From NCBI RefSeq assembly GCF_020616515.1, contig NZ_CP085135.1, forward strand, positions 124,001 through 188,000: a DNA stretch of 64,000 bases, read 5' to 3'. Source of the stretch: Mesorhizobium sp. PAMC28654 (GTDB taxonomy: Bacteria > Pseudomonadota > Alphaproteobacteria > Rhizobiales > Rhizobiaceae). The notes under the pieces were generated by a model. That model did not search any database. It had not been told where the DNA came from and saw nothing but the letters and a program-made list of their open reading frames with translations. Position 1 is the first letter of the stretch. The number at the start of each line of letters is the position of its first letter. Shown one piece after another: positions 3,966 to 33,125 of the stretch. The position numbers and the translations under genes are program-made.

Positions 3966-4667
3966 TCAGGCCGAAGCGCGCATGTTGTTGTGCTTGCGCT
4001 TCATGTATTCCTTGGCGGTCTCGACCGCTACCGCCGCATCGCGGCAATAGGCATCGGCACCGACGGCCTTGCCGAATTCCTCGTTGAGCGGCGCGCCGCC
4101 GACCAGCACGACATAGTCGTCGCGGATGCCCTTTTCCTTCATCGTGTCGATGACGACCTTCATGTAGGGCATGGTCGTGGTCAGCAGCGCCGACATGCCG
4201 ATGATGTCGGGCTGGTGCTGCTCGATCGCATCGAGATACTTTTCGACCGCGTTGTTGATGCCGAGATCGATGACGTCGAAGCCGGCGCCTTCCATCATCA
4301 TGCCGACAAGGTTCTTGCCGATGTCGTGGATGTCGCCCTTGACGGTGCCGATGACCATCTTGCCCTGCTTCGGCGCGCCGGTGGCGGCGAGCAGCGGACG
4401 CAGGATGAACATGCCGGCCTTCATCGCGTTGGCGGACAACAGCACTTCCGGGACAAACAGGATGCCGTCGCGAAAATCCTCGCCGACGATGCGCATGCCC
4501 TCAACCAGCGCTTCGGTCAGCACCCTGTAAGGCACCCAGCCGCGCTCGAGCAGTATGTTGGTGCCTTCCTCGATCTCTTCCTTCAGCCCGTCATAGAGAT
4601 CGTCGTGCATCTGCTGCACCAACTCGTCGTCGGAAAGCTCGGAAAGGATGATCTCGTCGTCGGCCAT
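3966..4667 (-). CDS. Corrinoid (cobalamin-binding) methyltransferase protein, MtbC/MttC type
   Basis: The protein has 233 residues when started at MADDEIILSE (ATG 4667); an upstream in-frame ATG at 4727 adds 20 unlikely residues. Residues 1-95 form the helical methionine-synthase-like cap domain. Residues 100-230 form the B12-binding Rossmann domain, with the signature Asp-x-His-x2-Gly in GDIHDIGKNLV; His114 is the expected lower axial ligand to cobalt. Further B12-domain markers are DVIDLG and VLVGGAPLN. Such proteins carry a methyl group on cob(III)alamin between a substrate methyltransferase (MttB family) and a folate or coenzyme acceptor. The divergent neighbour is an MttB-family gene, its likely partner. 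A hairpin terminator follows. Confidence 0.93.
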   Translation of the reverse strand: MADDEIILSELSDDELVQQMHDDLYDGLKEEIEEGTNILLERGWVPYRVLTEALVEGMRIVGEDFRDGILFVPEVLLSANAMKAGMFILRPLLAATGAPKQGKMVIGTVKGDIHDIGKNLVGMMMEGAGFDVIDLGINNAVEKYLDAIEQHQPDIIGMSALLTTTMPYMKVVIDTMKEKGIRDDYVVLVGGAPLNEEFGKAVGADAYCRDAAVAVETAKEYMKRKHNNMRASA

Positions 4668-4957
4668 TTGTATCCAGCTCCTGGCGGCATCGCGACTGTG
4701 TCGCAAGGCACAAAATATTGCGTTCAATACCTAACCTGCGGGGACGTGTATCCATAGCTGATTTGCGACTTCCCGCAAAAGGAAAGCGACCGCAAATTTA
4801 TTGGAATTCTTGTCGATTTTGCGACAGTCGTTGGCGCTGGCTGGCCGTTTCGAATAGGGTGCATGACTACGATCCCGCAAGAAGCCGTGATATGCGGCCG
4901 TAACGGATTTCAGGCCAGATGGATTTCAGGCCGGAACAGATTCAGGGAAGAGCGAAC
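4668..4957. promoter_or_regulatory. Divergent control region between the corrinoid and MttB genes
   Basis: This 290-base region separates the leftward corrinoid gene from the rightward MttB gene and must hold both promoters. It is AT-richer in its middle (around 4790-4830) than the flanking genes. The 12-base direct repeat GGATTTCAGGCC occurs at 4905-4916 and 4921-4932, 16 bases apart, just before the MttB start. No individual promoter box was assigned with confidence. Confidence 0.4.
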
Positions 4958-6532
4958 ATGAGCGATCACGCGGCAGTCGATCAGGAAGCGTCAAACGCGC
5001 GGCGCGGACGCGCCGCCAGCGGTGGCGCGGCTGCGCGGCGCGCGGCGCGCTCGGGCGGCGGTCCCGGCACTCAGCTCACCTACATCAAGCGCAAGATCAA
5101 CGTCTATGAGGTGCTGGACGAGGAAGGCCTGGCGCTGATCGAGAAGAACACCGACACGGTGCTTGAAGAGATCGGCATCATCTTCCGCGACGACGCCGAA
5201 GCGCTGCAACTGTGGAAAGAGGCTGGCGCCGACGTCAAGGGCGAGCGCGTGCACTTCCCGAAGGGCCTCTGCCGCTCGCTGCTGAAGACGGCGCCACCCG
5301 TCTACACCCAGCATGCCCGCAATCCCGAGCGTTCGGTGCAGATCGGCGGCAATGCCACGGTCTTCGCTCCCGTCTACGGCCCTCCCTTTGTGCGCGACCT
5401 CGACGGCAATCGCCGCTACGCGACGATCGAGGATTTCCATAATTTCGTGAAGCTCGCCTATATGGCGCCGTCGATCCACCATTCGGGCGGCACCGTGTGC
5501 GAGCCGGTCGATGTGCCGGTCAACAAGCGCCATCTCGATATGATCTACGCGCACATCAAGTATTCGGACAAACCGTTCATGGGCTCGGTCACCGCGCCGG
5601 AGCGCGCCGAGGACACGGTCGCCATGGCCAAGATCGTGTTCGGTGATGACTTCGTCGAGAACAACACGGTGCTGACCAGCCTGATCAACGCCAACTCGCC
5701 GATGGTGTTCGACGAGACGATGCTCGGCGCGCTGAAAGTCTATGCGCGCCACAACCAGGCCTGCATCGTCACGCCGTTCATCCTGGCCGGCGCCATGAGC
5801 CCGGTGACGGTCGCCGGCACGCTGACGCAGGTCCTGGCCGAAGTGCTGGCCGGTGCATCATTCACGCAGCTGATCCGGCCGGGTGCGCCGGTGCTGTTCG
5901 GCACCTTTGCCTCGTCGATCTCGATGCAGTCGGGCGCGCCGACGTTCGGCACACCGGAGCCGTCGCTGGTTTCCTATGGCGCGGCACAGCTTGCCCGCCG
6001 TCTCGGCCTGCCGTTCCGTACCGGTGGCTCGCTGTGTGCATCGAAGGTTCCGGATGCGCAGGCAGCCTATGAAAGCGCCAACACGCTGAACTCGACCATC
6101 CTTGCCGGCACCAACTTCGTGCTGCATTCGGCTGGCTGGCTCGAAGGCGGGCTGGCGTCCTGCTATGAAAAATTCATGATGGACATCGACCAGCTCGGCA
6201 TGCAGCAGAAATTCTGCGAAGGCGTCGACCTGTCGGAAAACGGCCAGGCCATGGATGCCATCCGCCAGGTCGGCCCGGGCAGTCACTATCTTGGTTGCGA
6301 CCACACGCAGGCCAATTTCCAGACCGCCTTCTACCGCTCCAACATCGCCGACAACAATTCCTATGAGCAGTGGCTGGCCGAGGGCGAGAAGACCGCGCCG
6401 CAGCGCGCCAACGACCTTGCCCGCCGCTGGCTGGAAAGCTACGAGGCGCCGTATCTCGATCCGAGCATCGACGAAGCCTTGAAGGACTTCATCGCCAAGA
6501 AGAAGGGGTCGATGCCCGACGCCTTCACTTGA
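4958..6532 (+). CDS. MttB-family (trimethylamine methyltransferase-like) corrinoid-dependent methyltransferase, copy 1
   Basis: The protein has 524 residues from ATG 4958 (MSDHAAVDQE). An Arg/Gly/Ala-rich tail of about 40 residues precedes the MttB TIM barrel. Family features include LEEIGIIFRDDAEAL, the glycine-rich TPFILAGAMSPVTVAG stretch and GWLEGGLASCYEKF near the C-terminus. There is no in-frame amber codon, so this belongs to the non-pyrrolysine branch. Characterised members of that branch act on quaternary amines such as glycine betaine, proline betaine or carnitine rather than trimethylamine. The exact substrate cannot be read from the sequence. It is divergent from the corrinoid protein gene, and the two probably work together to demethylate a betaine-like compound. 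Confidence 0.9.
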   Translation: MSDHAAVDQEASNARRGRAASGGAAARRAARSGGGPGTQLTYIKRKINVYEVLDEEGLALIEKNTDTVLEEIGIIFRDDAEALQLWKEAGADVKGERVHFPKGLCRSLLKTAPPVYTQHARNPERSVQIGGNATVFAPVYGPPFVRDLDGNRRYATIEDFHNFVKLAYMAPSIHHSGGTVCEPVDVPVNKRHLDMIYAHIKYSDKPFMGSVTAPERAEDTVAMAKIVFGDDFVENNTVLTSLINANSPMVFDETMLGALKVYARHNQACIVTPFILAGAMSPVTVAGTLTQVLAEVLAGASFTQLIRPGAPVLFGTFASSISMQSGAPTFGTPEPSLVSYGAAQLARRLGLPFRTGGSLCASKVPDAQAAYESANTLNSTILAGTNFVLHSAGWLEGGLASCYEKFMMDIDQLGMQQKFCEGVDLSENGQAMDAIRQVGPGSHYLGCDHTQANFQTAFYRSNIADNNSYEQWLAEGEKTAPQRANDLARRWLESYEAPYLDPSIDEALKDFIAKKKGSMPDAFT

Positions 6533-6621: not shown

Positions 6622-7311
6622 ATGATGTCCGGCAGCGTTGAAGCCATCGCTGCGGCGCTTTCGGCAAGCGGTCTCATCCTTCGCGGCGGCTTCAATTTCA
6701 CGGCAGCCGATGCGCCGCCGATTGGTCGGTCGGGCGCTTTGGCCAAATCTGTCCTGCTGGTGGGGCAGGCGGGATCGGCCCCCTGGCCGCATTTCCTGCA
6801 CTGGCGGGAAAAGCAATCACGGGCGATTACCGATCCACTCGATACGTGGTCGCGGCAGGTTATCGGCGCTGCGGCCGATATTTTTGGCGCGCGTGCGGTG
6901 TCTCCGTCCGACAAGCCGTATCTGCCGTTCCAGCAATGGGCGATGCGGGCGGAGGGTCTGAAGCCCTCGCCATTGGGCATCCTCATGCATCCGCAATACG
7001 GGCTCTGGCATGCCTATCGTGGCGCGCTGTTGTTCGAGGACGAGATTCATCTCGAGGCGCCTCAGGCAGCGATTCACCTGTGCGATGCATGTGTCGGAAA
7101 ACCCTGCATGAAAGCCTGTCCGGTGGACGCCTATTCGGAAGGTGGATTCGCCTATCAGTCCTGTCTTGCGCATGTGCGTGGGCTCAAGGGCGAACCGTGC
7201 CGCAGTGACGGCTGCCTTGATCGCAACGCCTGTCCTTACGGCGCCGCCTATCGCTATCCGGCGGAGGTGCAGGCCTTTCATATGGCAAGTTTTGCTCCGA
7301 TGGTCGGCTGA
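6622..7311 (+). CDS. 4Fe-4S ferredoxin-type protein, QueG-like Fe-S domain
   Basis: The protein has 229 residues. The C-terminal third has two cysteine groups: CDACVGKPCMKACPVDAY, a classic CxxCxxxxCxxxCP cluster arrangement, and later CRSDGC and NACPYG, which give a second set. The N-terminal part lacks cluster motifs. The arrangement resembles the iron-sulfur half of epoxyqueuosine reductase QueG and of corrinoid-reductive-activation proteins. It follows the MttB gene by about 90 bases, so supplying low-potential electrons to reactivate Co(II)-corrinoid is an attractive inference. There is no corrinoid-binding evidence in the sequence itself. Starts at 6622 or 6625 are equivalent. Confidence 0.75.
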   Translation: MMSGSVEAIAAALSASGLILRGGFNFTAADAPPIGRSGALAKSVLLVGQAGSAPWPHFLHWREKQSRAITDPLDTWSRQVIGAAADIFGARAVSPSDKPYLPFQQWAMRAEGLKPSPLGILMHPQYGLWHAYRGALLFEDEIHLEAPQAAIHLCDACVGKPCMKACPVDAYSEGGFAYQSCLAHVRGLKGEPCRSDGCLDRNACPYGAAYRYPAEVQAFHMASFAPMVG

Positions 7312-19564: not shown

Positions 19565-20602
19565 TTAGGCGCGGCTGCGGCGACGCTCGCGGCGGGCTTC
19601 GCTGGTCTCGGCGGTGTTTTCGGTCGCCACCTTGTTGCGCATCGGGCCGATGCGCTCGACGATCGCGGCAACAGTCGGACGATCCGCCTTCTGATGCGCG
19701 TCAAGCGCCTTGCGCATGGCGGCAAGGTGCTGGAACGAGGTGCCGCAGCAGCCGCCGACGATTTTCGCGCCGGCATCGACCGCGAGCCGCACATAATCAG
19801 CCATCAGTTCCGGCGTGCCGGAATAATGGATTTCGGTGCCGCGAAATTCCGGGATGCCGCAATTGCCCTTGACGATCACCGTCGCCTCCGGCTTCGCCTC
19901 GGTCATGTCGAGCAGCGAGGCAAGGATGTCGGACGCGCCAACGCCGCAATTGGCGCCGACGCCTAGCGGGGCCTCTGACAGGCCATCAACGACGCCGTGG
20001 ATATCCCTGGGCAGCAGGCCCATCATGGTGCGGCCGGCGGTGTCGAAAGAACCCGTATAGGTATAGGGCAGGCCGACGCGAATGGCGGCTTCGGCCGCGG
20101 CGCGGATTTCGTCCGGCGCCGACATTGTTTCGATCCAGGCGACTTCGGCGCCACCTTCCTTGAGGCCCTCGATCTGCTCGGCGAAGGCCTCGACCGCCTC
20201 GTCATAGGTCATGGCGCCGAGCGGAACCAGAAGTTCGCCCGTCGGGCCGACCGAGCCGGCGACGATCACCTTGCGGCCGGCCTTGTCGGCGACAGCGCGG
20301 GCGATCTCGGCAGCGCGCTTGTTCAGGGCATGCACGCGGTCCTGCGCATGGTGCAGTTTCAGCCGATGGCGCGTGCCGCCGAAGGAGTTGGTCAGGATGA
20401 TGTCGGCGCCGGCATCGACGAAATTCTGGTGCAGGCTGGTGATGGTGTCGGGCGCCGTCTCGTTCAGCAGTTCGGGTGCCTCGCCGGCTTCCAGCCCCAT
20501 GGCGAACAGGTTTGTGCCTGTGGCGCCATCGGCCAGCAGCACGCCCTTTTCAGCCAGCAGCGCGTCAATGGGGTTGGTCGTCGTCATCGAATTGGCTTTC
20601 AT
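19565..20602 (-). CDS. bmt: Betaine-homocysteine S-methyltransferase
   Basis: The enzyme has 345 residues and belongs to the homocysteine methyltransferase family. It opens with the family stretch LLADGATGTNLFAMG. The zinc ligands are visible: Cys in VGANCGVG and the Cys-Cys pair in IVGGCCGTSF. This set transfers a methyl group from glycine betaine, or from a related onium donor, to homocysteine, giving methionine and dimethylglycine. It fits the rhizobial Bmt type rather than the longer MetH. Starts at 20602 and 20587 (MTTTN) are both possible. Its product dimethylglycine would be a substrate for the dehydrogenase-like enzyme at 25.7-28.3 kb. A small palindrome upstream may be an operator. 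Confidence 0.9.
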   Translation of the reverse strand: MKANSMTTTNPIDALLAEKGVLLADGATGTNLFAMGLEAGEAPELLNETAPDTITSLHQNFVDAGADIILTNSFGGTRHRLKLHHAQDRVHALNKRAAEIARAVADKAGRKVIVAGSVGPTGELLVPLGAMTYDEAVEAFAEQIEGLKEGGAEVAWIETMSAPDEIRAAAEAAIRVGLPYTYTGSFDTAGRTMMGLLPRDIHGVVDGLSEAPLGVGANCGVGASDILASLLDMTEAKPEATVIVKGNCGIPEFRGTEIHYSGTPELMADYVRLAVDAGAKIVGGCCGTSFQHLAAMRKALDAHQKADRPTVAAIVERIGPMRNKVATENTAETSEARRERRRSRA

Positions 20603-21373: not shown

Positions 21374-22231
21374 TCAGACAGAGCCTGATGGGAACGACAT
21401 GCCGGCCAGGTTGCGCGCGAAGGCGGCGGCCTCATGCGGGTTGACGTCGGCGACGCGGATCAGATTGTCGAAATGGCGAGTCAGTGCCTGGATCGGCTGG
21501 GTGGCGTTCAGCACCACATACATGTCGCCGACATAGATGGCGGCCCGATAAGGGCCGAAGATGGTGAGCGGTATCGAATAGCGCATGCGGCCGTCATAGA
21601 GAAACAGACGGAAGGTCGGGTAGAGGTCGTCGAGCAGCGTCGCCATATGGGTGAGTTGTTGCTGGCGATCGGTCGCCGGAAAATGGTCCCAGACGCCCAG
21701 GCCGCGCGCGAATATCTCCAGCGTGTGGCGCGGCATGCAGACTTCCATGTCGGTTTCCGGGCGCCGGTTGTATTCGATGCGGTATTGGGTCTCGATGGCC
21801 TGTGCCTGGCGGCTCCTGTTGGTGATGTTGGCTTCGTAGTCGACGAGCGCGTGCGTCCGCAGAAGATCGGGAATGCCGGCCGGTACATAGCGGATCTTGG
21901 TGCCGGCGGCTTCAGCGAACCATTTGGCCAGCAGCGTGCGGTCGAAGCCATCCGGCGCTTCCTCGATCTCCAGGCTCTCGCGGATTTCACCGGTCAGGCC
22001 TTCGTCCTGGCTGAGGCCAAGCAGCCAGTCCAGCGACACCTTGAATTCGGCGGCGATGTTGAGCAGCGTTTCGGCTCGCGGCAGGCGTGTCGAGGCGCCG
22101 GACAGGAGTTGCGACAGGGCCGACCGATCGATGCCGACAGCAGTGGCGAATGCCGACTGGTTGAGGTCGGACCGTGTCAGGAGCAGCTTCAGACGCTCCC
22201 GAAAGATTGCTGACAGATCCCGTTTGTCCAT
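21374..22231 (-). CDS. XRE-family transcriptional regulator with C-terminal sensor-like region
   Basis: The protein has 285 residues from MDKRDLSAIFRERLKLLLTR. The N-terminal helix-turn-helix (residues 10-70) contains LNQSAFATAVGIDRSALSQLL, the XRE fold. The long C-terminal region has IFARGLGVWDHFPATDR and IPLTIFGPYRAAIYVGDMY and is not one I can name; it presumably binds an effector. The gene is divergent from the fatty acid desaturase, and a perfect inverted repeat at 22398-22419 lies between them, so it may control that operon and itself. Confidence 0.85.
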   Translation of the reverse strand: MDKRDLSAIFRERLKLLLTRSDLNQSAFATAVGIDRSALSQLLSGASTRLPRAETLLNIAAEFKVSLDWLLGLSQDEGLTGEIRESLEIEEAPDGFDRTLLAKWFAEAAGTKIRYVPAGIPDLLRTHALVDYEANITNRSRQAQAIETQYRIEYNRRPETDMEVCMPRHTLEIFARGLGVWDHFPATDRQQQLTHMATLLDDLYPTFRLFLYDGRMRYSIPLTIFGPYRAAIYVGDMYVVLNATQPIQALTRHFDNLIRVADVNPHEAAAFARNLAGMSFPSGSV

Positions 22232-22397
22232 CGCCGTTCTCCGCGAATCCTGAGGAAAAATTTGCGCCAGAGCCAGCCGAAACAGCGGTTCAGGCGTAAA
22301 TGAATCCCTAAGGCTGTTTACAATGTATAACATGTGCGGTCAAAAATGCGCAATCGCAACATTTTGTACACTTTGTCTCGTTGAGTGGAATCACTTC

Positions 22398-22449: not shown

Positions 22450-23472
22450 GTGGTCGATAGCATGACAGGCAAGAGCATCAAGCGACGCAACACACCAGCC
22501 ATCGAATGGCCGACCGTGGTACTGGCTTTATTCTGTTACGGAACATGGCTTGCCACCGGCTTCCTGCTCTGGCCTTCCTATCCCATCCTGGCTCTCGTCA
22601 TCCTCGGCTTCACCCTGGCATTGCAGTCATCGATCATGCACGAAGTGCTGCATGGCCATCCGACACGCAGCGCGTTGGTCAACGAAGCTTTCGTCTTTCT
22701 GCCTATAGGTTTCGTCTGGCCGTTCCGCCGCTTCAAGACGTTGCACTTGCGCCACCACGCCGACGAGCGGCTGACCGATCCGCTCGATGATCCGGAAAGC
22801 TACTACCAGGCGCTCTGGATGCACGAAGACCTGCCGCCAACGATGAAATTCCTGCTGAAGATCAACAATACCATGGCCGGCCGTTTCTTCCTCGGCCCCT
22901 GGCTGTCCTGCATCGGTTTCTTCATCGACGACGCCAAGCATGTGATTGCCGGCGACAAGGCGATCCGCAAGGCCTGGCTGCTGCATGCGATCGGCCTCGC
23001 GGTCGTTGTCCCGATCGTGCAGTTCGGCTTCGGTATCCCGCTGTGGCTCTACATTTTGGTACCGGTGTGGCTCGGCCAGTCGCTGATTGCGATCCGCACC
23101 TTTGCCGAGCATCAATGGTCCGAGCATCCGGAAGGCCGCACGGTCATTGTCGAGCGTTCGCCGCTGTCGTTCCTGTTCCTCAATAACAATCTGCATTTCG
23201 TCCACCACAAGACCCCGACCGTGGCGTGGTACAGGCTGCCGAAGCTGTTCCGCGACCGCCGCGAGGAATGGTTGCGGATGAACAATGGCTATGCCTATCC
23301 GAACTATTTCGCGTTGATCAAATCCTATGCCTTCAAGGCAAAAGAGCCGCTGGTCCATCCGGTGCTGCGGCGTGCGCCGGAGCCAGGCAGGGCATTCAAG
23401 CCGCGCATCAGGGCGCGCAACGTCAATGGTCTCGGTACAGCGCCGGTTCCCGCCGAGCCGCCCAAGGAATAA
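22450..23472 (+). CDS. Membrane fatty acid desaturase-family protein
   Basis: The protein has 340 residues and four to five hydrophobic segments. It has the histidine clusters of di-iron membrane desaturases: HEVLHGH at about residue 62, LRHHAD at about 100, and a third VHHKTP box near residue 255. It would introduce a double bond into, or hydroxylate, an acyl or alkyl substrate with oxygen. It starts at GTG 22450 or ATG 22462. It is followed 88 bases later by a PhnD-like protein and probably shares its transcript. The substrate is unknown. Confidence 0.9.
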   Translation: MVDSMTGKSIKRRNTPAIEWPTVVLALFCYGTWLATGFLLWPSYPILALVILGFTLALQSSIMHEVLHGHPTRSALVNEAFVFLPIGFVWPFRRFKTLHLRHHADERLTDPLDDPESYYQALWMHEDLPPTMKFLLKINNTMAGRFFLGPWLSCIGFFIDDAKHVIAGDKAIRKAWLLHAIGLAVVVPIVQFGFGIPLWLYILVPVWLGQSLIAIRTFAEHQWSEHPEGRTVIVERSPLSFLFLNNNLHFVHHKTPTVAWYRLPKLFRDRREEWLRMNNGYAYPNYFALIKSYAFKAKEPLVHPVLRRAPEPGRAFKPRIRARNVNGLGTAPVPAEPPKE

Positions 23473-23560: not shown

Positions 23561-24388
23561 ATGAGCGAATTTGTTGCGGCGTTGCCGATGTATGACTGGC
23601 CTGAGGTGCACGACGAAGTCGACGCCCAATGGGTGCGGCTGCGCGACGCCTTCAGGCAACGAGGCATCAACGCGCCGGAAATCATTGTGCGGCGCAATGG
23701 CGACCTGCCACCGGTGCCCGGTGGCATCCACGATACCAATGGCAAGCTGATCGCACCCGATCCGGCGACATTGCCGCCCGACGAACTCGATTATCACAAG
23801 CTTTGGCTGCACCCGGCGCTGTTGTTCGCGCAGACCTGCTGGGGGCCGATGGAACTCGGCCTGTCGAGCCATGTGCGGGTGGTCGGTCAGCCAAGCTACG
23901 ACGCCTATGAGGGCGGGCAGGGCGAGCTCTATTCCAGCGCGCTGGTGATGCGGACGGGCGAGGGGCCGGAGGCTCGATCGCCTGCCGACGGCAAGGCCTT
24001 CCTCCCACTTGATCTGATCCGCGGCAAGCGCTTCACCTTCAACAGCCTCGATTCCATGTCGGGCACCATTGGCCTGACGCGCGACCTTGAGGCGCAAGGC
24101 GAAAGCCTGGACATCTTTGCGTCACGCAGCGAAAGCGGAGGCCATCGCGGCTCGATCGTCGCAGTCGCCGAGGGCAAGACGGATATCGCTGCGATCGATT
24201 GCGAAAGCTGGGCGTTGGCGCGGCGTTTCGAGCCGGCGGCGCGGAAGGTTGCGATCGTCGGCTGGACGGCACGGCGCAAGGGCCTGCCGTTCATCACCGC
24301 CAGGGCGACGCCGGAAAATACGGTCAGGGCAATGCGCGAAGCACTTGCCGGACTAGCCGAGCAGCCTCGCATCCAACGGGTAGGTTGA
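23561..24388 (+). CDS. PhnD-like substrate-binding-fold protein without signal peptide
   Basis: The protein has 275 residues and resembles the binding component of phosphate/phosphonate ABC transporters: LPMYDWPEV near the start, FNSLDSMSGTIG at about residue 165, and an AIDCESWAL stretch. There is no signal peptide or lipobox, so it should stay in the cytoplasm, and no permease or ATPase lies nearby. It may be a ligand-sensing or catalytic relative. It probably forms an operon with the desaturase. Its 3' end overlaps the end of the DddP-like gene on the other strand by 36 bases. Confidence 0.8.
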   Translation: MSEFVAALPMYDWPEVHDEVDAQWVRLRDAFRQRGINAPEIIVRRNGDLPPVPGGIHDTNGKLIAPDPATLPPDELDYHKLWLHPALLFAQTCWGPMELGLSSHVRVVGQPSYDAYEGGQGELYSSALVMRTGEGPEARSPADGKAFLPLDLIRGKRFTFNSLDSMSGTIGLTRDLEAQGESLDIFASRSESGGHRGSIVAVAEGKTDIAAIDCESWALARRFEPAARKVAIVGWTARRKGLPFITARATPENTVRAMREALAGLAEQPRIQRVG

Positions 24389-25708
24389 AAGCTGCTCGTT
24401 GCCGGTCTGGGTGATCAGGATCTGCTCCTCGATCTTGACGCCCTCGCGGCCACCGAGCCTGCCGATATAGCTTTCCACGCACAGCACCATGCCCGGTTCG
24501 ATTACCCCGTCCGGCGTGTCTGATGTCCAGTCGCTGGCATGGGGCAGGGTCGGGTACTCGTCTGCCAGCCCAACGCCGTGATAGAGCACGCCGTAGCGGG
24601 TCGGGAAACAATCTCCAGGTGGCACCGCCGAGCGTTCGACAAGGTCGCGGAACGAGATGCCGGCCTGCATCAATTCTGTATTGTGGATGATCTGGTCGGC
24701 TGCGATTCGGAACAGGTCACGCTGTTCATTAGTCGGCTTTGTATCGCCGCATAGCCAGGTACGCGACAGGTCGGCGCAGAAGCCGTAGGGGCCGATCAGG
24801 TCGGTGTCGAAGGCGACGAGATCGCCGGCTTCGATGATACGCGACGAGCATTCCTGGAACCATGGATTGGTGCGCGGCCCCGACGCCAGCAGCCGCGTCT
24901 CGATCCATTCGCCGCCGCGCGCGATGTTGCCGCGATGCAGTTCCGCCCACAATTCGTTCTCGGAAATGCCGGGCTTCAGGGCCTGCTCCATCTCGCCCAT
25001 CGCCGCCTCGCAGGCGACGATCGCGCGGCGCATGGCGAGGATCTCGTCGGGTGATTTGATCAGCCGCGCCGTCTCCATCACCGCTTCGCCATTGCCGATC
25101 GAAATACCGAGACGGGCGAGTTCCTCGACGCCTTCCGGATTGATGTGGTCGACGGCGATGCGGCTGTTGCCGCCGCCATGTTCCCTGACCAGATCGGCGA
25201 TGCCGGCGGCCCAGCGGCGGACTTTCTGCTCGGTCAGTTCGCCGCCATAGAGGTACATCCACGATACCGCCGGGCGCACCTCGTCGACGACGCCGGAATG
25301 ATCGGACAGGTGTTCGCAGGAAAAATAGTCGAACAGAACCACCGGGCCTTCGGTGGCGACGAAACAATGCCGAGTCGGGTTGTGCGCCACCCACAGCTGC
25401 ATGTTGGTGCTGTCGGTGGCGTAGCGGATGTTGACGGGGTCGTAGAGCAGGGCGCCGGCATAGCCGCGGCGCTTCAACTCGGCGCGGATGCGGTCAAGCC
25501 GGTATTGGCGCATTTCGGCCAAGTCGGGGGCGGCAATGCCCGCCGCCGCCCATTCAGCTTCCGCCTGGGCGCCATAGCCCAGCACATGCTGGTTGAGTGA
25601 CGCCGCCTTTTGACGGGAGGCGTCGCGCAGGGCCTCGATCGAGCCGGGCTCGAACGGCATGATCTTGCGATGGCGACCAAAGCCCGCCTTCAGCCCCGCG
25701 CTGTCCAT
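24353..25708 (-). CDS. M24 metallopeptidase-fold protein closely resembling DMSP lyase DddP
   Basis: The protein has 451 residues with an N-terminal creatinase-like domain and a pita-bread M24 domain. It resembles DddP much more than Xaa-Pro peptidases: NIRYATDSTNMQLW, GGEWIETRLLASGPRTNPWF and FDTDLIG are nearly the DddP wording. Metal ligands Asp301, Asp303, Asp313, His377, Glu412 and Glu427 keep exactly the spacing I recall for Ruegeria DddP (D295, D297, D307, H371, E406, E421). Asp383 and Tyr372 fall where its catalytic D377 and Y366 would be. DddP cleaves dimethylsulfoniopropionate to dimethyl sulfide and acrylate. The gene starts nine bases after the dehydrogenase gene with its own GAGG site, so it is in the same operon. 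Whether the substrate is DMSP is inference. Confidence 0.85.
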   Translation of the reverse strand: MDSAGLKAGFGRHRKIMPFEPGSIEALRDASRQKAASLNQHVLGYGAQAEAEWAAAGIAAPDLAEMRQYRLDRIRAELKRRGYAGALLYDPVNIRYATDSTNMQLWVAHNPTRHCFVATEGPVVLFDYFSCEHLSDHSGVVDEVRPAVSWMYLYGGELTEQKVRRWAAGIADLVREHGGGNSRIAVDHINPEGVEELARLGISIGNGEAVMETARLIKSPDEILAMRRAIVACEAAMGEMEQALKPGISENELWAELHRGNIARGGEWIETRLLASGPRTNPWFQECSSRIIEAGDLVAFDTDLIGPYGFCADLSRTWLCGDTKPTNEQRDLFRIAADQIIHNTELMQAGISFRDLVERSAVPPGDCFPTRYGVLYHGVGLADEYPTLPHASDWTSDTPDGVIEPGMVLCVESYIGRLGGREGVKIEEQILITQTGNEQLSTYPLDARLLG

Positions 25709-25717
25709 GGAGGAACC

Positions 25718-28288
25718 TCAGGTCCGCATCTTCTCGCCGCTTGGATCGAAGGGCGCCTCGACATTGATGCGGGCTGGACGGCGATGTCCGAGGATCTCGA
25801 TCTCGAACAGTCCGGCGCTCTCGTCCTCGGCCAGTGCCGCCGGCACGTAACCCTGCGCCATCGACTTCCGCACATAGTGAGCGTAACCGCCGGAGGTTAC
25901 CCAGCCGACCACGCGCCAGTCACCGTCAACGATGCCGCGCACGGCTGAAGCGCCTTCGGCAGCCTTGGAGCCGCGTATTTCCTTGCCGGCCTTGTCGAAG
26001 CGCGGCGCGCCGTAGCCATGCGGCTTTTCCACCGTGCCATAGTCCTTGCTGACCTTGGCCCAGATAGGCTCGTCGCCCATGACGTCGGCACCGTCCGCAT
26101 CGACGATGAAGGAGACGCGGCGCAGCTTTGGCCCTTCGGCCTGTTCCTTGGCGGCTGCTTCGCGGCCGATGAAATCGTTCTTCTCCAACTTGATGAAACG
26201 GTCCATCGCGCCTTCAAACGGCCCGTAGATCGGCCGCAACTCGCGGAACCAGGTCGGGAAGTTCTTTTCCAGGCGCATCGACAGCAGCGCGCGCATGCCG
26301 AAATCGACCAGGCCGAATTCCTCGCCGGCGTCCTTGATCGCCTTGTAGACGAGGCGCTGGTAGGCAGGCGCCATCCAGATCTCGTAGCCGAGGTCGCCGG
26401 TATAGGTGATGCGGTTGACCAAGCAGGGCGCGCCGCCGACCGCCATTTCGCGGAAATCCATGAAGCGGAACGCCTTGGTCGAGATGTCGACATCGACCAG
26501 CTTCTGCAAGAGGTCACGCGATTTCGGACCGGCGATCGAGAGACCGACCAGGGTCTGATCGAAGCGGTGGATGCGCACCGAACCGTCCTTAGGCAGGTGC
26601 TTCTCGAACCAGCGCATGTGGTATTTCTGCGCGGCGGAAGAGCCCCAGATCATGAAGCGATCTTCGGCGGCCTTGGCGATGGTGAAGTCGCCGATCAGCT
26701 TGCCGAATTCGTTGAGCATCGGCGTCAGCACGATGCGGCCGGTCTTCGGCATGCGGTTCGTCATCAGCCGATTGAGGAAATCCTCCGCTGCTGGTCCCGA
26801 CACTTCGTACTTGGCGAAGTTGGCGATTTCGGTCACGCCGACGCGCTCGCGCGTGGCACGCACTTCCTCGCCGATCGGGCCAAAGTCGTTGGAGCGATGG
26901 AAGGAGACGATGTCCTTCGGCTCCTTGCCCTTCGGCGCGAACCAGAGCGGGGTTTCAAGACCCCACGAGTCGCCCATGACGGCGTTGTTGGCCAGCATCG
27001 TGTCGTAGAGCGGCGTCGTCTGCGCAGGACGCGCGGCCGGCAGTTCCTCATTGGGGAAGCGGATCGAGAAGCGACGCGAATAGTTCTCGCGCACCTTGGC
27101 ATTGGTGTAGCGCAGGCCGGCCCATTCACCGAAGCGGGTGACATCCATGCCCCAGACGTCGAAGCCCGGATCGCCATGAACCATCCAGTTGGACAGCGCC
27201 AGGCCAACGCCGCCGCCCTGGCTGAAGCCGGCCATGACGGCGCAGGCGCACCAGAAATTGGTCAGGCCCTGCACCGGGCCGACCAGCGGATTGCCGTCGA
27301 GTGCGAAGGTGAAGGGGCCGTTGATGATCTGCTTGATGCCGGCCTTCTCGATGCCGGGGAAATGCTTGAAGCCGATTTCCAGCGACGGCGCGATGCGGTC
27401 GAGATCCGGCGGCAGCAACTCATGGCCGAAATCCCACGGCGTGTTGACCGGCGACCAAGGCTTGCAGGCCTTTTCGTAGGTGCCGAGCAGGATGCCGTTG
27501 CGCTCCTGTCGGGTGTAGATCTCGCCCTTGAAATCGAGCACGCCGATCATCTCGCGGCCGGTCGACTTGTTGAATTCCTCGACCTCCGGCATCGGCTCTG
27601 TGAGCAGATACATGTGCTCCATGGCCAGCACCGGCAGTTCGACACCGACCATGCGGCCGATCTCGCGCGCCCACAGACCACCGCAGTTGACGACATGCTC
27701 GGCTTTCACCGTGCCTTGTTCGGTGACAACGTTCCAGGTGCCGTCGACTTCCTGCGTCAGTTCGACGACGCGGTTGCGCAGCACGATCTCGGCGCCGAGC
27801 TTTTTCGCCGCCTTGGAATAGGCGATCGTGGTGCCAGACGGATCGAGGTGGCCTTCGACCGGATCCCACATGGCGCCGACAAAATTGGTCTCGTCCATCA
27901 GCGGGAACATCGCCTTGGCTTCGGATGGCGTGATCAGCTCGGTGTCCATGCCGAGATAGCGGCCCTTGGCGTGGGCGAGGCGCAGGAAGTCCATGCGCTC
28001 CGGCGTATCGGCCATCATCACGCCGCCGGTCAGGTGCAGCGAGCAGGACTGGCCGGAAATCTCCTCGATCTCCTTGTAGAGTTGCACCGTGTAGGCTTGC
28101 AGCTTGGCGACGTTGGGATCGCCGTTCAGCGTGTGGAAGCCGCCCGCCGCATGCCAAGACGAGCCGGAGGTGAGCTCGGAGCGCTCGATCAGCATGATAT
28201 CGGTCCAGCCGGCCTTGGCCAGATGGTAGAGAACCGAGCAGCCGACGACGCCGCCGCCAATGACAACCGCTTTTACGTGGGATTTCAT
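25718..28288 (-). CDS. FAD-dependent dimethylglycine/sarcosine dehydrogenase-family protein
   Basis: The protein has 856 residues in three parts. An N-terminal D-amino-acid-oxidase-type FAD domain has VIGGGVVGCSVLYHLA and the SSWHAAGGFH stretch where FAD is attached to a His in the family. An FAO_M linker domain follows. The C-terminal half is a glycine-cleavage-T-like tetrahydrofolate domain with a GcvT barrel tail. The family oxidises N-methyl groups of dimethylglycine or sarcosine and passes the carbon to tetrahydrofolate. Its GcvT half is also related to the DMSP demethylase DmdA. The ATG overlaps the stop of the DUF559 gene by four bases. The enzyme would consume the product of betaine-homocysteine methyltransferase, or another methylated substrate of this locus. 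Confidence 0.88.
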   Translation of the reverse strand: MKSHVKAVVIGGGVVGCSVLYHLAKAGWTDIMLIERSELTSGSSWHAAGGFHTLNGDPNVAKLQAYTVQLYKEIEEISGQSCSLHLTGGVMMADTPERMDFLRLAHAKGRYLGMDTELITPSEAKAMFPLMDETNFVGAMWDPVEGHLDPSGTTIAYSKAAKKLGAEIVLRNRVVELTQEVDGTWNVVTEQGTVKAEHVVNCGGLWAREIGRMVGVELPVLAMEHMYLLTEPMPEVEEFNKSTGREMIGVLDFKGEIYTRQERNGILLGTYEKACKPWSPVNTPWDFGHELLPPDLDRIAPSLEIGFKHFPGIEKAGIKQIINGPFTFALDGNPLVGPVQGLTNFWCACAVMAGFSQGGGVGLALSNWMVHGDPGFDVWGMDVTRFGEWAGLRYTNAKVRENYSRRFSIRFPNEELPAARPAQTTPLYDTMLANNAVMGDSWGLETPLWFAPKGKEPKDIVSFHRSNDFGPIGEEVRATRERVGVTEIANFAKYEVSGPAAEDFLNRLMTNRMPKTGRIVLTPMLNEFGKLIGDFTIAKAAEDRFMIWGSSAAQKYHMRWFEKHLPKDGSVRIHRFDQTLVGLSIAGPKSRDLLQKLVDVDISTKAFRFMDFREMAVGGAPCLVNRITYTGDLGYEIWMAPAYQRLVYKAIKDAGEEFGLVDFGMRALLSMRLEKNFPTWFRELRPIYGPFEGAMDRFIKLEKNDFIGREAAAKEQAEGPKLRRVSFIVDADGADVMGDEPIWAKVSKDYGTVEKPHGYGAPRFDKAGKEIRGSKAAEGASAVRGIVDGDWRVVGWVTSGGYAHYVRKSMAQGYVPAALAEDESAGLFEIEILGHRRPARINVEAPFDPSGEKMRT

Positions 28289-28746
28289 GAAGATAGGTCC
28301 GTTTTTGAAGGGATTGAATCGAGAGAGGGCGGTGTGAAAACAAAGCGAAGGTCGGATACAGCGATGTTTTCGGTCAGCCTGCCATCAAGCGCGGCAAGGA
28401 TGGTTTCACAGACGGGAGTGCGATGTTTCAGGACGTCGTGGCTCCAAACACGCAGGATCGAATAGCCCTGGGCGCGCATGAAATCGTCGCGGCGGCGGTC
28501 ATAGGAACTGCCGGCGTGTTGTGAGCCGTCGACTTCAACGATGAGCCATTTTTCGTGGCAGGCGAAGTCAGCAAAAAAGGGGCCGATGGAGAATTGGCGG
28601 GTGAATCGATAGCCGCCAAGTTTGCGCGCCTTTAGTTCAAGCCAAAGCAATGCTTCTGCCTGGTTGACTCCCTGCCTGAGAGTTCGGGCTCGCTGGGTTG
28701 TGCCTATTTTGCGGCGGCTGCGCGTTTCATGACCGGCTTCCCCCAC
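28285..28746 (-). CDS. DUF559 endonuclease-domain protein inserted in the operon
   Basis: The conserved core is about 110 residues: TTQRARTLRQGVNQAEALLW, then FSIGPFFADFACHEKWLIVE and VDGSQHAGSSYDRRRD. This gives the Asp...Glu-x-Asp arrangement of PD-(D/E)xK nucleases related to very-short-patch repair endonucleases. The start is uncertain: GTG 28746 gives a normal-length family protein, whereas upstream ATGs at 28812 and 28902 read through a palindromic repeat and add low-complexity residues. It lies between an MttB gene and the dehydrogenase gene and overlaps the latter's start (ATGA). It appears to be a passenger that became translationally coupled to the operon. Confidence 0.75.
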   Translation of the reverse strand: MGEAGHETRSRRKIGTTQRARTLRQGVNQAEALLWLELKARKLGGYRFTRQFSIGPFFADFACHEKWLIVEVDGSQHAGSSYDRRRDDFMRAQGYSILRVWSHDVLKHRTPVCETILAALDGRLTENIAVSDLRFVFTPPSLDSIPSKTDLSS

Positions 28747-28880
28747 TCCGTCGCCGCTTTGCGGCGCCACCTCTCCCCCCTCCGGAGGGAGAGGAAAGGT
28801 GCCAGCCTGCATAAGCTCGCGCCCTTCCTCTCCCCCGTCGATCGGGGGAGAGGTGTCGAGCGAAGCTCGACGGAGTGGGG
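28741..28880. repeat. Composite palindromic repeat (rhizobial REP/RIME-like)
   Basis: This 140-base element has outer inverted ends CCCCACTCCGTCG (28741-28753) and its complement (28868-28880). Inside are two hairpins rich in C/G: CTCTCCC..GGGAGAG at 28771-28794 and CCTCTCCCCC/GGGGGAGAGG at 28827-28853. It sits between the MttB gene and the DUF559 gene. A similar CTCCCCC-type pair is at 49146-49310. Confidence 0.8.
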
Positions 28881-28908
28881 GTCGACTGTTCATCGCCAAC
28901 ATAGATGA

Positions 28909-30486
28909 TCAAAAATCGGTCGGCGCGCCGCCTTCGGCCGTGCGCTTTTCGACGAAGGCATTGAGTTCCTCGCGGATGGCCGGGTCCATGTAAGGCTCTT
29001 CGTAGGAAGCCAGCCGTTCCTTCCAGATCTTGTTGGCCTTTTCCATCGCCGTCGGCGATCCGGCTTCCGCCCAGGTCTCGAAATTGCGCCAGTCGGAGAG
29101 GATCGGCGAATAGAAGGCGGTCTTGTAGCGGTCCTGCGTGTGCTGCGTGCCGAAGAAGTGGCCGCCGGGGCCGACCGACTGGATGGCGTCGAAGCCGAGC
29201 GCCTCCTCGGAAAGGTCGAGCGGGGTCAGGAATTCAGCCACCATCTGCAGCAGGTCTATATCCAGGATGGTCTTCTCGTAGGAGCAGCGCAGGCCGCCTT
29301 CGAGCCAGCCGGCGGCGTGCATCATGAGATTGCCGCCGCCCTGGACGGCGCCCCACAGCGAGAACACGCTCTCATAAGCCGCCTGCGCGTCGACCGTGTT
29401 GGCGGCACAGGTGTTGGAGGTGCGGTAGGGGATGTTGTAGCGGCGGGCGAGCTGGCCGCCAACGAGCTGTGCCTTCATGTATTCAGGCGTGCCGAAGGCC
29501 GGTGAACCGGACTTCATGTCGACATTGGAGGTGAAGCCGCCATAGCCGACCGGTGCACCCTTCCTGACCATCTGGGCGAAGGCGATGCCGGACAGCGCCT
29601 CGGCATTCTGCTGCACCAGCGCACCGGCGATGGTCACCGGCGCCATGGCGCCCGACAGGGTGAACGGCGTGACGATGACGACCTGACCCTTGCTCGACAT
29701 CTGGATGATGCCTTCCATCATCGGCACGTCGAGCTTGAGCGGCGAATTGGTGTTGATGATGGTGAAGACCGACGGCTCTTCCAGCATCTGCTCGTGGCTG
29801 ATGCCGCGCGCGATGCGGGTGATCTCTATGCCGTCGACATTGCGTTCCTTGCCGAGCGAATAGATGTGGAACACCTTGTCGGTCAGCGTCGCCAGGTCGC
29901 GGATGCATTCGAGGTGGCGGACCGACGGGTGGATATCGGTCGGCTCGACCGGATAGCCGCCCGTGCAATTCAGGATGTTGTGCATCTGCGCAAGGCGCAG
30001 GAAGTTGCGATAGTCCTGCTGGTTGCCCGGCCGGCGGCCGCGATCGATGTCGGAGCAATTGGGCGCCGAGGCCATCATCGAGATGATCAGATTGTCGCCG
30101 CCGAAGCGCACATTATGCGCGGGGTTGCGGGAATGAATGGTGAATTCGGACGGGCAATTCGACACCAGCTCGAGGATCATGTCGCTGTCGAAGCGCACGC
30201 GTTCGCTGCCTTCGCGTACGTCGGCGCCATTCGCTTTCATGATGCGGCGGGCTTCGTCATGCAGCACGTCGACGCCGATTTCCCGCAGCACGCGCAAGGA
30301 GGCGAGGTGGATCGATTCCAACTCGTCTTCCGAGACCAGCTTGGTTGGCGCGAGCGGGTTTCTCAGCTGGCGGAAAGCCGGCTGCTCGAATGCGGACGAG
30401 CCGCCGGCGCGCTTTCCAGCGCGGCCGCCACGGCGGGCGCGGTCGGGTGCCAGTACCGGTTCTGCAGGTTGTAGGGCGGCGGTCAT
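28909..30486 (-). CDS. MttB-family corrinoid-dependent methyltransferase, copy 2
   Basis: The protein has 525 residues from ATG 30486 (MTAALQPAEP). An open frame continues 97 codons upstream but with unrelated sequence. The overall plan is the same as copy 1: a basic Gly/Arg tail, LREIGVDVLHDEARRI, TPFTLSGAMAPVTIAG and HAAGWLEGGLRCSYEK. Sequence details differ throughout, so this is a diverged paralogue, not a recent duplicate. There is no in-frame amber codon. As the first gene of the operon with DUF559, the dehydrogenase and the DddP-like gene, it probably demethylates a substrate or product of those enzymes using the shared corrinoid protein at 4 kb. The methyl donor is unknown. Confidence 0.9.
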   Translation of the reverse strand: MTAALQPAEPVLAPDRARRGGRAGKRAGGSSAFEQPAFRQLRNPLAPTKLVSEDELESIHLASLRVLREIGVDVLHDEARRIMKANGADVREGSERVRFDSDMILELVSNCPSEFTIHSRNPAHNVRFGGDNLIISMMASAPNCSDIDRGRRPGNQQDYRNFLRLAQMHNILNCTGGYPVEPTDIHPSVRHLECIRDLATLTDKVFHIYSLGKERNVDGIEITRIARGISHEQMLEEPSVFTIINTNSPLKLDVPMMEGIIQMSSKGQVVIVTPFTLSGAMAPVTIAGALVQQNAEALSGIAFAQMVRKGAPVGYGGFTSNVDMKSGSPAFGTPEYMKAQLVGGQLARRYNIPYRTSNTCAANTVDAQAAYESVFSLWGAVQGGGNLMMHAAGWLEGGLRCSYEKTILDIDLLQMVAEFLTPLDLSEEALGFDAIQSVGPGGHFFGTQHTQDRYKTAFYSPILSDWRNFETWAEAGSPTAMEKANKIWKERLASYEEPYMDPAIREELNAFVEKRTAEGGAPTDF

Positions 30487-30684: not shown

Positions 30685-31857
30685 ATGACCTCTTCCACCG
30701 ACACCGTCGAACCACCCTTGCAATGGGCAGCGCTTGCCGGCGTCACCGCGGCGCTGGCCATGTTTGGTGCGGCGCAAGGCTTGAGCTCACCGCTGTTCAC
30801 GCTGCTGATGCAGAAGCAGGGCATGTCGCCCGCGCTGATCGGTCTTTCCGCCGCCATGATGCCGCTCGGCCTGGTTCTTTCGGCGTCATTGGTGCCGGCC
30901 GCCGTCCGGCTCGTTGGCGCGCGCACGCTGGCCGTCAGCTGCTCGCTGATCGGCGCGCTCTGTTTCTTCGCCATCGGCTATCTGCAGGACTGGGTCGCCT
31001 GGTTCGTCATCCGCTTCATTGTCGGCGTCATCATCAATCCGCTCTACATCCTTGGCGAGGTCTGGGCGCTGTCGCTGGCGCCGCCCTCGCGGCGTGGCAG
31101 GGTCATGGGTGTGTTCAATTCCGTCCTGGGGGTCGGATACGCGACGGGGCCGCTGGTCTTGACCGCTGTTGGTACGTCGGGATGGGTTCCTTTCATCGTC
31201 GGGATCGCTGGGTTCGTGCTCTGTGCGGTGATCCTGCGCGCTGTCTCGGCCAGCCTTGCCGGCTTCGAGGACGACGGCCAGCCCTCCGGCGGCCTTGTCG
31301 GCTTCGCCAGGCTGGCGCCGGCGCTGCTGTTCGCGGTGATGGTCTCGGCCGCGGTCCAGCAGAGCACCTATGCGCTGATCCCGGTCTTTGGCTCCGGCTA
31401 TGGGCTGCCTGAAGCGGTGCTCGCCGCGCTGGTTATGGCGCTGTCGCTCGGCAACATCTTCCTGCAGATCCCGCTTGGCCTGCTGGCGGAACGTTTTGGC
31501 GGCCGGGCCATGATCATCGCCTGCGCGGTCGCGACAGCCGTTTGCGCGGTTCTGTTGCCGTTGCTGATCACGACGCCGTTGATATGGGTCGTGTTGCTCG
31601 TCATGGGCGCGGTCGGCTACGGCGTCTACACGATGGCGCTGGTCGAACTGGGTAGCCGGTTCAAGGGATCGGCACTTGTCTCCGGCAATGCGGCGTTCGC
31701 CCTGATGTGGGGCGCCGGCGGCATCGTCGGTCCGCCAAGCGCCGGCGCACTCATGCAGGCGATTGGGCCGCTCGGCCTGCCCACGGTGATCGCCGCGCTC
31801 GATGTGCTCCTGGTGGTGTTCGCGCTTTACCGGTCGTCGGTGCGACACAAGTCCTGA
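30685..31857 (+). CDS. MFS transporter, tandem copy 1
   Basis: The protein has 390 residues and about twelve hydrophobic segments, typical of the major facilitator superfamily. The conserved inter-domain pattern is visible in SLAPPSRRGRVMGVFNS. It is about 50 percent similar by eye to the next gene (for example SPALIGLSAAMMPLG against SPAMIGLSAAMTPIG), so the two arose by duplication. It is divergent from the MttB operon across about 200 bases, so it could import or export the operon's substrate, but no substrate class is clear. Confidence 0.87.
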   Translation: MTSSTDTVEPPLQWAALAGVTAALAMFGAAQGLSSPLFTLLMQKQGMSPALIGLSAAMMPLGLVLSASLVPAAVRLVGARTLAVSCSLIGALCFFAIGYLQDWVAWFVIRFIVGVIINPLYILGEVWALSLAPPSRRGRVMGVFNSVLGVGYATGPLVLTAVGTSGWVPFIVGIAGFVLCAVILRAVSASLAGFEDDGQPSGGLVGFARLAPALLFAVMVSAAVQQSTYALIPVFGSGYGLPEAVLAALVMALSLGNIFLQIPLGLLAERFGGRAMIIACAVATAVCAVLLPLLITTPLIWVVLLVMGAVGYGVYTMALVELGSRFKGSALVSGNAAFALMWGAGGIVGPPSAGALMQAIGPLGLPTVIAALDVLLVVFALYRSSVRHKS

Positions 31858-31952
31858 GCCCGTGGCGCAAGCGGATTTCGCCGCGCGGCCCTTTCGTTCT
31901 CGAAATCCTGGAGATAGCTGGATGGCTCGCCGAGGGAGAGCGGCACTTCATT

Positions 31953-33125
31953 ATGGATGACAAGATGGTAGCGGCCGGTTCGAGCGACAGCGAGGCGGGA
32001 ATGCAATGGGCCGCGATCACCGGCGTGATCGCGACCGTGTCCGTGTTCGCCATCGCGCAGGGGCTCTCCTATCCGTTGTTGAGCTTCATCCTGCAGCGCC
32101 AGGGCGAATCCCCGGCCATGATCGGATTGTCGGCGGCGATGACGCCGATCGGCTTCATCGCCTCGTCGCCGTTCATCCCGGCATTGGCGCGACGGTTCGG
32201 GGCAGGGCGAACGGCGCTCACCTGCGCGGTGCTATCGGCGGTCGTCCTGGCGCTGATCGGCTTGACGCAGAATGTCTATCTGTGGTTTCCCCTGCGCTTC
32301 CTGATCGGGGTGGTGACCAATCCGCTCTATGTGCTCAGCGAAATCTGGGTGATCGCGCTGGCGCCGCCGGCGCGGCGCGGCCGCCTGATGGGCGTCTATT
32401 CGACGATCATCTCGGCCGGTTTCGCGGCGGGACCGCTTTGCCTGCTTGCTGTCGGCACCGAGGGCTGGCCGCCATTTCTTGTCGGCATCTCCGCCTTCGC
32501 TCTTTGCGGCATCTGCCTGGCTTCGGTGCTGCCACGCTTGCCCAAGGTGGACGGGGCAGGACACCAGGTGTCCGTCCTTGGCTTCATGCCGCTGGCCACG
32601 CTGCTGATGTTTTCCGTCGTGATCGCCGCCGGCTTTGAACAGACGGCCTTGGCGCTGCTGCCGGTCTATGGCACGCATTACGGCATCACCGAGACCCGCA
32701 TGTCGGCGCTGCTGTCGGTGATGATTGCCGGCAACATCGCCATGCAGGTGCCGCTTGGCCTGCTGGCGGAAAGACTCACGGCGCGGCTGGTGCGGCTGAT
32801 CTGCACGGCGATCACGGTGCTCGGATGCGTCCTGCTGCCGCTCCTCATCGAAACGCCGCTGATCTGGCCGATGCTCTTCGTCTGGGGCGCTGTCTCCTAC
32901 GGTATCTATACGATGTCGATCATCGAGTTGGGAGAGCGCTTTACGGGCTCGACATTGATCGCTGGCAACGCCGCCTTCGCGCTGATGTGGGGCGTTGGCG
33001 GCATTTCCGTGCCGCCACTGACGGGAAGCACCATGGATGTCCTGGGCGCCGGCGGCCTGCCGCTCACGCTTGGCCTGCTGTGCCTGGCATTGGCGGTGGC
33101 GAGTGTTGGTCGCAGGAAAGCCTGA
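31953..33125 (+). CDS. MFS transporter, tandem copy 2
   Basis: The protein has 390 residues from ATG 31953 (MDDKMVAAGSSDSEAG), with about twelve membrane segments. It is a paralogue of the preceding carrier, with the same opening MQWAAITGVIATVSVFAIAQG and the conserved LAPPARRGRLMGVYST loop. The open frame extends 5' into the end of copy 1, but the homology with copy 1 begins at this ATG. It is likely cotranscribed with copy 1 (95-base gap). The substrate is unknown. A prolyl oligopeptidase follows in the same direction. Confidence 0.85.
   Translation: MDDKMVAAGSSDSEAGMQWAAITGVIATVSVFAIAQGLSYPLLSFILQRQGESPAMIGLSAAMTPIGFIASSPFIPALARRFGAGRTALTCAVLSAVVLALIGLTQNVYLWFPLRFLIGVVTNPLYVLSEIWVIALAPPARRGRLMGVYSTIISAGFAAGPLCLLAVGTEGWPPFLVGISAFALCGICLASVLPRLPKVDGAGHQVSVLGFMPLATLLMFSVVIAAGFEQTALALLPVYGTHYGITETRMSALLSVMIAGNIAMQVPLGLLAERLTARLVRLICTAITVLGCVLLPLLIETPLIWPMLFVWGAVSYGIYTMSIIELGERFTGSTLIAGNAAFALMWGVGGISVPPLTGSTMDVLGAGGLPLTLGLLCLALAVASVGRRKA

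Follow-up and report, generated by a model that had tools for sequence, protein, structure and literature searches.

The final gene of an operon in Mesorhizobium sp. PAMC28654 encodes an M24 metalloenzyme (P0001) that resembles DddP, a lyase of dimethylsulfoniopropionate (DMSP), and lies downstream of genes for an MttB-family methyltransferase and a dimethylglycine dehydrogenase-like (DMGDH-like) flavoenzyme. The operon was analysed in a 64-kb window (contig NZ_CP085135.1, positions 124,001 to 188,000) of a host genome that is a single contig of 6.7 Mb. Judged from its sequence, P0001 may well be a two-metal lyase or hydrolase of a DddP-like M24 branch, acting in the B12- and folate-linked degradation of a methylated quaternary-ammonium (betaine-type) compound. 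The active-site set, the position in the tree and the conserved operon are seen directly in the sequences and are described in turn.

Family placement and phylogenetic position

Searches against the Protein Data Bank (PDB) returned DddP as the best solved relatives of P0001 (4rzy, E 1.1e-114; 4b28, E 3.5e-107), and the next family, proline dipeptidase/prolidase, followed at E 1.7e-18. The similarity to DddP is far above chance, with 46% and 42% identity to the two crystal DddPs. Pfam assigned the domains Peptidase_M24 and Creatinase_N. The NCBIfam DddP equivalog model NF043017 matched P0001 over nearly its full length with 476 bits but did not reach its cut-off of 600, a value passed by a relative from Oceanisphaera (626 bits). 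Leaving DddP aside, the best NCBIfam model reached 58.8 bits (cut-off 393); DoeA_2 reached 47 (cut-off 575) and a methionyl aminopeptidase model 40 (cut-off 171). With all of these below their cut-offs, identity of P0001 as a creatinase, ectoine hydrolase or prolidase was rejected on the family scores.

Of 249 genomes sampled across the order, 50 held a relative of P0001 at E<=1e-40. Among 385 sampled genomes of the class, 78 carried a relative at E<=1e-60 and 12 a protein above the NF043017 cut-off. Plasmid records holding relatives numbered 178, of which 152 were from Rhizobium or Sinorhizobium; all of these plasmid proteins are less than 60% identical to P0001, and they do not all belong to the same subgroup. 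Those of Paracoccus yeei and Oceanisphaera are labelled DddP in public plasmid records.

Two trees were constructed, the first with 88 rows, in which three further M24 proteins encoded by this genome served as outgroup, the second with 90 rows (the first minus seven rows plus nine others). The proven DddPs in both were the two crystal ones, with no fungal DddP among the rows, and the first tree was made without a creatinase, DoeA or prolidase of known function. In the first tree the two crystal DddPs fell within a 36-row clade (support 100/100), and P0001, six Mesorhizobium-group relatives and locus L012 formed an 8-row clade outside it (89/98). The second tree gave a 35-row DddP clade (100/99) and the same 8-row clade (100/96), the two being sisters with moderate support (85/93). 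P0001 lies next to the DddP clade rather than within it, as a probable sister lineage. The initial annotation expected the protein to group with DddP and not with creatinases or prolidases; this grouping stands against the genome's three other M24 proteins, which were the comparison set, with P0001 outside the DddP clade itself.

Active-site residues and motifs

Residues were matched by MAFFT alignment against the DddP of R. lacuscaerulensis (Rl; PDB 4rzy). The metal ligands correspond one for one (D301=D295, D303=D297, D313=D307, H377=H371, E412=E406, E427=E421), and all six are at the numbers given in the initial annotation. The substrate-binding Trp (W106=W95), the Phe (F284=F278) and the catalytic residues (Y372=Y366, D383=D377) correspond likewise, which upholds the earlier placing of Asp383 and Tyr372 at the catalytic positions. 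The six DddP ligands are named, and Tyr366 and Asp377 put forward as candidate bases, in PMC4108388, whose numbering for RdDddP agrees with that of Rl DddP. The PDB sequences 4s01 and 4s00 deviate from 4rzy at precisely the Asp and the Tyr. According to the review PMC5395565, the Trp and Tyr of DddP bind sulfur, and Asp and Phe replace two histidines of the peptidases. At position 284, P0001 has Phe where the genome's three other M24 proteins have His. All ten positions were invariant, and the matched stretch free of stops, in 80/80 related loci, these being the best 80 of 174 relatives from the named genome collection (76 of the 80 titled Mesorhizobium).

For comparison across the family, the three outgroup rows were taken out, leaving 85 rows. 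The Trp, the Tyr, the Asp and the six ligands were jointly kept in 73 of them, including 7 Mesorhizobium rows, 36/36 rows of the DddP clade and 12/12 rows of a clade that includes proteins encoded beside Rieske oxygenase or MttB genes. These nine residues mark a large family, not a substrate. As relatives beside Rieske or MttB genes also keep them, they do not identify DMSP lyases; the initial annotation had read them as such a mark, and as proof of DMSP cleavage they were rejected. The Phe (Rl F278) is found in 31/36 DddP-clade rows and also varies in the 12-row Rieske/MttB clade.

The 12 rows failing the nine-residue set include L002, a paralog encoded in the same genome (G000:C1:3991574-3992734) and 42% identical to P0001, in which the Trp is replaced by Tyr and the catalytic Asp by Gly. 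Both exchanges are present in 6/6 rows of its subgroup. To judge from these residues, the function of the paralog must differ from that of P0001. Several relatives of L002 adjoin a gene of the isochorismatase family.

Two stretches had been described as almost DddP wording, and they behaved differently. TDSTNMQLW was exact in 17/85 rows, 10 in the DddP clade and 7 in the P0001 group. GGEWIETRLLASGPRTNPWF was exact in 13/85 rows, and 9 of these (P0001, L007 and seven others) fall outside the DddP clade; it was rejected as a DddP-specific motif, and only TDSTNMQLW is therefore DddP-leaning. At the column of Rl A103, Ala is present in 36/36 DddP-clade rows and 0/49 others, and P0001 has His114; such marker columns were picked after viewing the alignment. 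A four-residue marker set for the DddP clade failed over all rows, only Rl A103 being clean. The 49 rows outside the clade also show Phe at F155 (11 rows), Gly at G282 (3 rows) and His at H333 (1 row), and within the clade itself H333 is His in 33/36 rows.

The operon and its neighbourhood in related genomes

MttB, a DUF559 open reading frame (ORF), the DMGDH-like gene and the DddP-like gene follow one another on one strand, with 9 bases between the DMGDH-like stop and the DddP-like start (Table 1). Neighbours in the 80 related loci were called at >=45% identity over 35% of the query, and at >=60% identity for the betaine-homocysteine methyltransferase (BHMT)-like gene; 72 of the 80 loci had a full flank, that is at least 7.9 kb on either side. 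Every full-flank locus (72/72, of which 69 bear the name Mesorhizobium) has MttB and the DMGDH-like gene upstream on the same strand, and the final place of the DddP-like gene in such an operon, already noted in the initial annotation, is confirmed. Over all 80 loci, MttB was present in 74 (the other six being cut by contig ends) and the DMGDH-like gene in 78. The set is likewise seen at L041, which belongs to a different family of the order.

Table 1. Operon genes and further features of the 64-kb window, with positions in the window; loci are the 80 related loci and aa stands for amino acids
Feature	Position	Strand	Evidence and occurrence
DddP-like M24 metalloenzyme (P0001), 451 aa, final gene of the operon	24353..25708	minus	PDB, NCBIfam, Pfam, alignment
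DMGDH-like FAD/folate demethylase (DAO + GCV_T), 856 aa	25718..28288	minus	Pfam; PDB dimethylglycine dehydrogenase, E 4.6e-169
DUF559 ORF between MttB and DMGDH-like gene, apparently an optional insert	28285..28902	minus	Pfam; 19/80 loci
MttB-family methyltransferase, 525 aa, likely start ATG 30486	28909..30486	minus	Pfam MTTB; PDB matches
MFS transporter, divergent from the operon	30685..31857	plus	Pfam
Second MFS transporter (MFS2)	31707..33125	plus	Pfam; 55/80 loci
PhnD-like (Phosphonate-bd) protein, convergent with the DddP-like gene and overlapping it by 36 bases	23561..24388	plus	Pfam; 79/80 loci
FA_desaturase-family protein	22450..23472	plus	Pfam; 76/80 loci
Helix-turn-helix regulator	21374..22333	minus	Pfam; 75/80 loci
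BHMT-like protein (MtgE/Bmt type)	19565..20602	minus	NCBIfam PRK07534, 572 bits vs 338; 73/80 loci
Second MttB-family methyltransferase	4919..6532	plus	Pfam MTTB, 778 bits; 39% identical to operon MttB
Corrinoid (B12-binding) protein, MtgC-like	3966..4667	minus	Pfam B12-binding + B12-binding_2
DUF1638 protein	3226..3891	minus	Pfam DUF1638, 85 bits
Cysteine-rich protein, 229 aa, near second MttB and corrinoid gene	6622..7311	plus	no Pfam or NCBIfam match

Linkage was also counted by clade, as genes within 6 kb. Loci of one clade are relatives and do not count as independent; the counts cover the loci mapped to the tree, nine others being excluded, and 10/34 DddP-clade loci had less than 6 kb on one side. 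MttB was found in 6/7 loci of the 8-row P0001 clade (the seventh is cut by a contig end) and in 0/34 of the DddP clade. It was present in 5/7 loci of an outer clade and in 3/12 of the Rieske/MttB clade, a further 5/12 of which carried a Rieske oxygenase gene. Of L079 and L109, one has MttB within this distance and the other a Rieske gene. Two of the nine unmapped loci, including that on the Sinorhizobium meliloti plasmid (L112), had an MttB and a DMGDH-like match. At L143, genes for BHMT-like, DddP-like, corrinoid, DUF1638 and MttB proteins are consecutive on one strand with a DMGDH-like gene adjoining, all within 7.8 kb, and this arrangement strengthens the operon argument.

The operon MttB matched 4yyc (a putative trimethylamine methyltransferase) at 1.8e-106, 2qne at 7e-97 and 9yce (a glycine betaine methyltransferase) at 8.9e-97 in the PDB. 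One of the closest described systems is MtgBCDE of Ruegeria pomeroyi, in which glycine betaine demethylation is joined to methionine synthesis (PMC12478193); the same paper is the source of the MtgE reading in Table 1 and of the prediction that the DUF1638 protein is a corrinoid-recharging partner. MttB-domain, corrinoid, DUF1638 and MtgE-like proteins are all encoded in the window; the comparison was confined to these four kinds. In the window, unlike the described system, the genes lie in three groups over ~27 kb. The word "peptidase" is absent from the main text of PMC12478193, and the sections consulted mention no M24 enzyme. The window corrinoid protein scored 209 and 173 bits with two NCBIfam MtgC models, under both cut-offs (370 and 310). 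The same protein is 84% identical to that of L046, whose DddP-like gene lies ~7 kb away from it.

A different setting for a similar enzyme is seen at L081, on a Rhizobium phaseoli plasmid. Its DddP-like M24 protein shares the Trp, Tyr, Asp and ligands with P0001 but is 43% identical to it and has Tyr instead of Phe at position 284. The neighbouring genes encode a Rieske oxygenase with its reductase, a 4-hydroxyproline epimerase and a glycine betaine/proline transporter, with no MttB. To judge from these neighbours, an enzyme encoded there may demethylate betaines, a likeness to the setting of P0001.

In the genome as a whole, MttB-family matches were found at 9 places (one with an internal stop) and DMGDH-like matches at 16 (several over the folate-binding part only), and there is one DddP-like gene of the P0001 type. 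With one such gene against several MttB and DMGDH-like places, the enzyme is probably devoted to a single methylated substrate rather than to the demethylation of betaines at large. An AcuI/YhdH-type protein is encoded (442 bits, cut-off 297), but the AcuI-type model also passed in 2/14 control genomes and is therefore no pointer to DMSP. No match to DmdA above its cut-off was found in the genome. According to PMC3338564, close linkage of acuI and dddP is known from just one bacterium; the absence of a nearby acuI here thus says little.

Several features of the window and of related loci are recorded as side observations. Relatives of the cysteine-rich protein adjoin MttB in several related loci, and this protein is a candidate for supplying electrons to the corrinoid protein or for recharging it. 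Two overlapping ORFs at 18110-19059 (minus), one with a DDE_3 and one with a helix-turn-helix match, are a transposase split over two frames, presumably of IS630 type. At G000:C1:6467482-6469706 a DMGDH-like gene beside MttB is present as two pieces in different frames, either two genes or one broken gene. On a plasmid of Rhodobacteraceae bacterium M382 (L114), genes for a guanidino-oxopentanoate decarboxylase, a fatty acid desaturase and a ferredoxin subunit lie near a DddP-like gene, and the edge of the locus holds a ring-hydroxylating dioxygenase; it is another pairing of a desaturase with a DddP-like gene, as in the window.

Proposed function, alternatives and significance

The DddP mechanism requires of its substrate a metal-binding carboxylate, an acidic hydrogen at the alpha position and, at the beta carbon, an onium group. 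We infer the chemistry of P0001 (copied from DddP), the N-onium class of its substrate and the sequence of reactions. In this scheme a methyl group would go from MttB to the corrinoid protein, the DMGDH-like flavoenzyme would move further N-methyl groups onto folate, and P0001 would cleave what is left of the skeleton, or a related onium compound. In the cleavage itself, the carboxylate would be held by the metals, Asp383 would abstract the proton, and Trp106 and Tyr372 would position the onium group. A beta-onium propionate such as beta-alanine betaine is the simplest candidate substrate; it fits DddP chemistry and is not singled out by the data. The initial annotation had allowed for "another onium compound" as substrate. 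DMSP cleavage is possible as a side activity of P0001.

Several observations weigh against a role in betaine degradation. Three further MttB genes of the genome directly adjoin a DMGDH-like gene, side by side as in the window but with no DddP-like gene; the pair therefore works without one. A betaine could also lose its methyl groups through the MttB and DMGDH-like enzymes alone, and why a lyase should be needed is left unexplained. The linkage to MttB is weak in a 16-row paralog clade (2/15 loci) and absent at L102, L104 and L105 (0/3) and at L108 (0/1). DddP-clade loci also lie near DMGDH-like genes (5/34) and Rieske genes (3/34), so that the contexts are not fully separate. Of the five Rieske loci in the 12-row Rieske/MttB clade, L061, L062 and L081 are closely related to one another and not independent. 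Exact TDSTNMQLW is confined to the DddP clade and the P0001 group, and this common stretch, together with the failed marker columns, slightly reduces the separation of P0001 from DddP.

That P0001 is a genuine DMSP lyase, converting plant-derived DMSP to dimethyl sulfide and acrylate while the operon handles co-imported osmolytes, appears unlikely to us. Its nearest solved relatives are DddPs, the six ligands and the Trp, Tyr, Asp and Phe are conserved, its clade is sister to that of DddP (85/93), TDSTNMQLW is shared, and the genome holds an AcuI/YhdH-type protein above its cut-off. PMC4108388 reports that FgDddP, only 32% identical to RdDddP, enabled dimethyl sulfide production in E. coli, and P0001 is closer than this to the crystal DddPs. 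However, P0001 scores 476 bits where 600 are needed, falls outside a strongly supported DddP clade, has His at the column where that clade is uniformly Ala (Rl A103) and has a gene neighbourhood other than that of DddP; DmdA is missing above its cut-off, and the AcuI-type model passes in control genomes as well. The earlier reading as DddP-type thus holds in part: the grouping with DddP, the known active site and the methyl-group operon stand, whereas the residues as a mark of DMSP lyases, the NCBI cut-off and membership of the DddP clade do not. Naming P0001 a DddP DMSP lyase goes too far for this evidence.

A hydrolase of the M24 type (creatinase-, ectoine-hydrolase- or Xaa-Pro-peptidase-like), which would split an amide or C-N bond and feed the methylamine pathway, for example with betaine from a conjugate, is quite improbable. 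It draws on the M24 fold and the Peptidase_M24 domain, on the database names of many relatives (Xaa-Pro dipeptidase or aminopeptidase) and on a family-5 (peptide-type) ABC binding protein encoded beside MttB and the M24 gene at L041, L043, L047 and L049. The scores of the non-DddP models, far under their cut-offs, speak against it, as does Phe284 in place of the His of the genome's other M24 proteins; such a His exchange, along with the Asp, is suggested to abolish peptidase activity in DddP, as reported in PMC5395565.

The initial annotation described DddP as known mostly from marine bacteria and fungi, which is dated. PMC7039863 reports that in sediments of the Yellow Sea and Bohai Sea an average of 37.8% of bacteria carried dddP, with Mesorhizobium among the carriers found by profile search in sediment metagenomes. 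This and the Rhizobium and Sinorhizobium plasmid records led us to reject the view that DddP-type genes are unheard of in rhizobia. In the titles and abstract openings listed by searches on DddP, betaine, M24, MttB or beta-alanine betaine, the sister-lineage position and the conserved MttB operon are not described. Mesorhizobium dddP homologues are already in print, and within this scope we judge the sister-lineage position and the MttB operon to be apparently new. No paper was returned by a search that combined stachydrine and Rieske demethylation with a peptidase and an operon. In Mesorhizobium alhagi an mttB is reported to be salt-induced and, after knockout, was judged uninvolved in salt resistance.

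PMC5395565 gives the Km of DddP for DMSP as 14-17 mM, and a different original substrate is therefore plausible. As a tentative and rather doubtful extension, two-metal onium lyases could form a broader family that mostly cleaves nitrogen betaines, DddP being a single specialised offshoot of it; the Mesorhizobium member, as a widely conserved companion of a B12-dependent demethylation operon, would then be a betaine lyase of an undescribed kind. Counts of dddP serve to estimate the microbial capacity for dimethyl sulfide. As the usual active-site residues do not separate DddP from relatives in other neighbourhoods, such counts may be too high; if the wider family is real, enzymes that yield no dimethyl sulfide would be included in many environmental dddP counts. 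Through the conserved operon, the other substrate of this family can be approached and tested directly.

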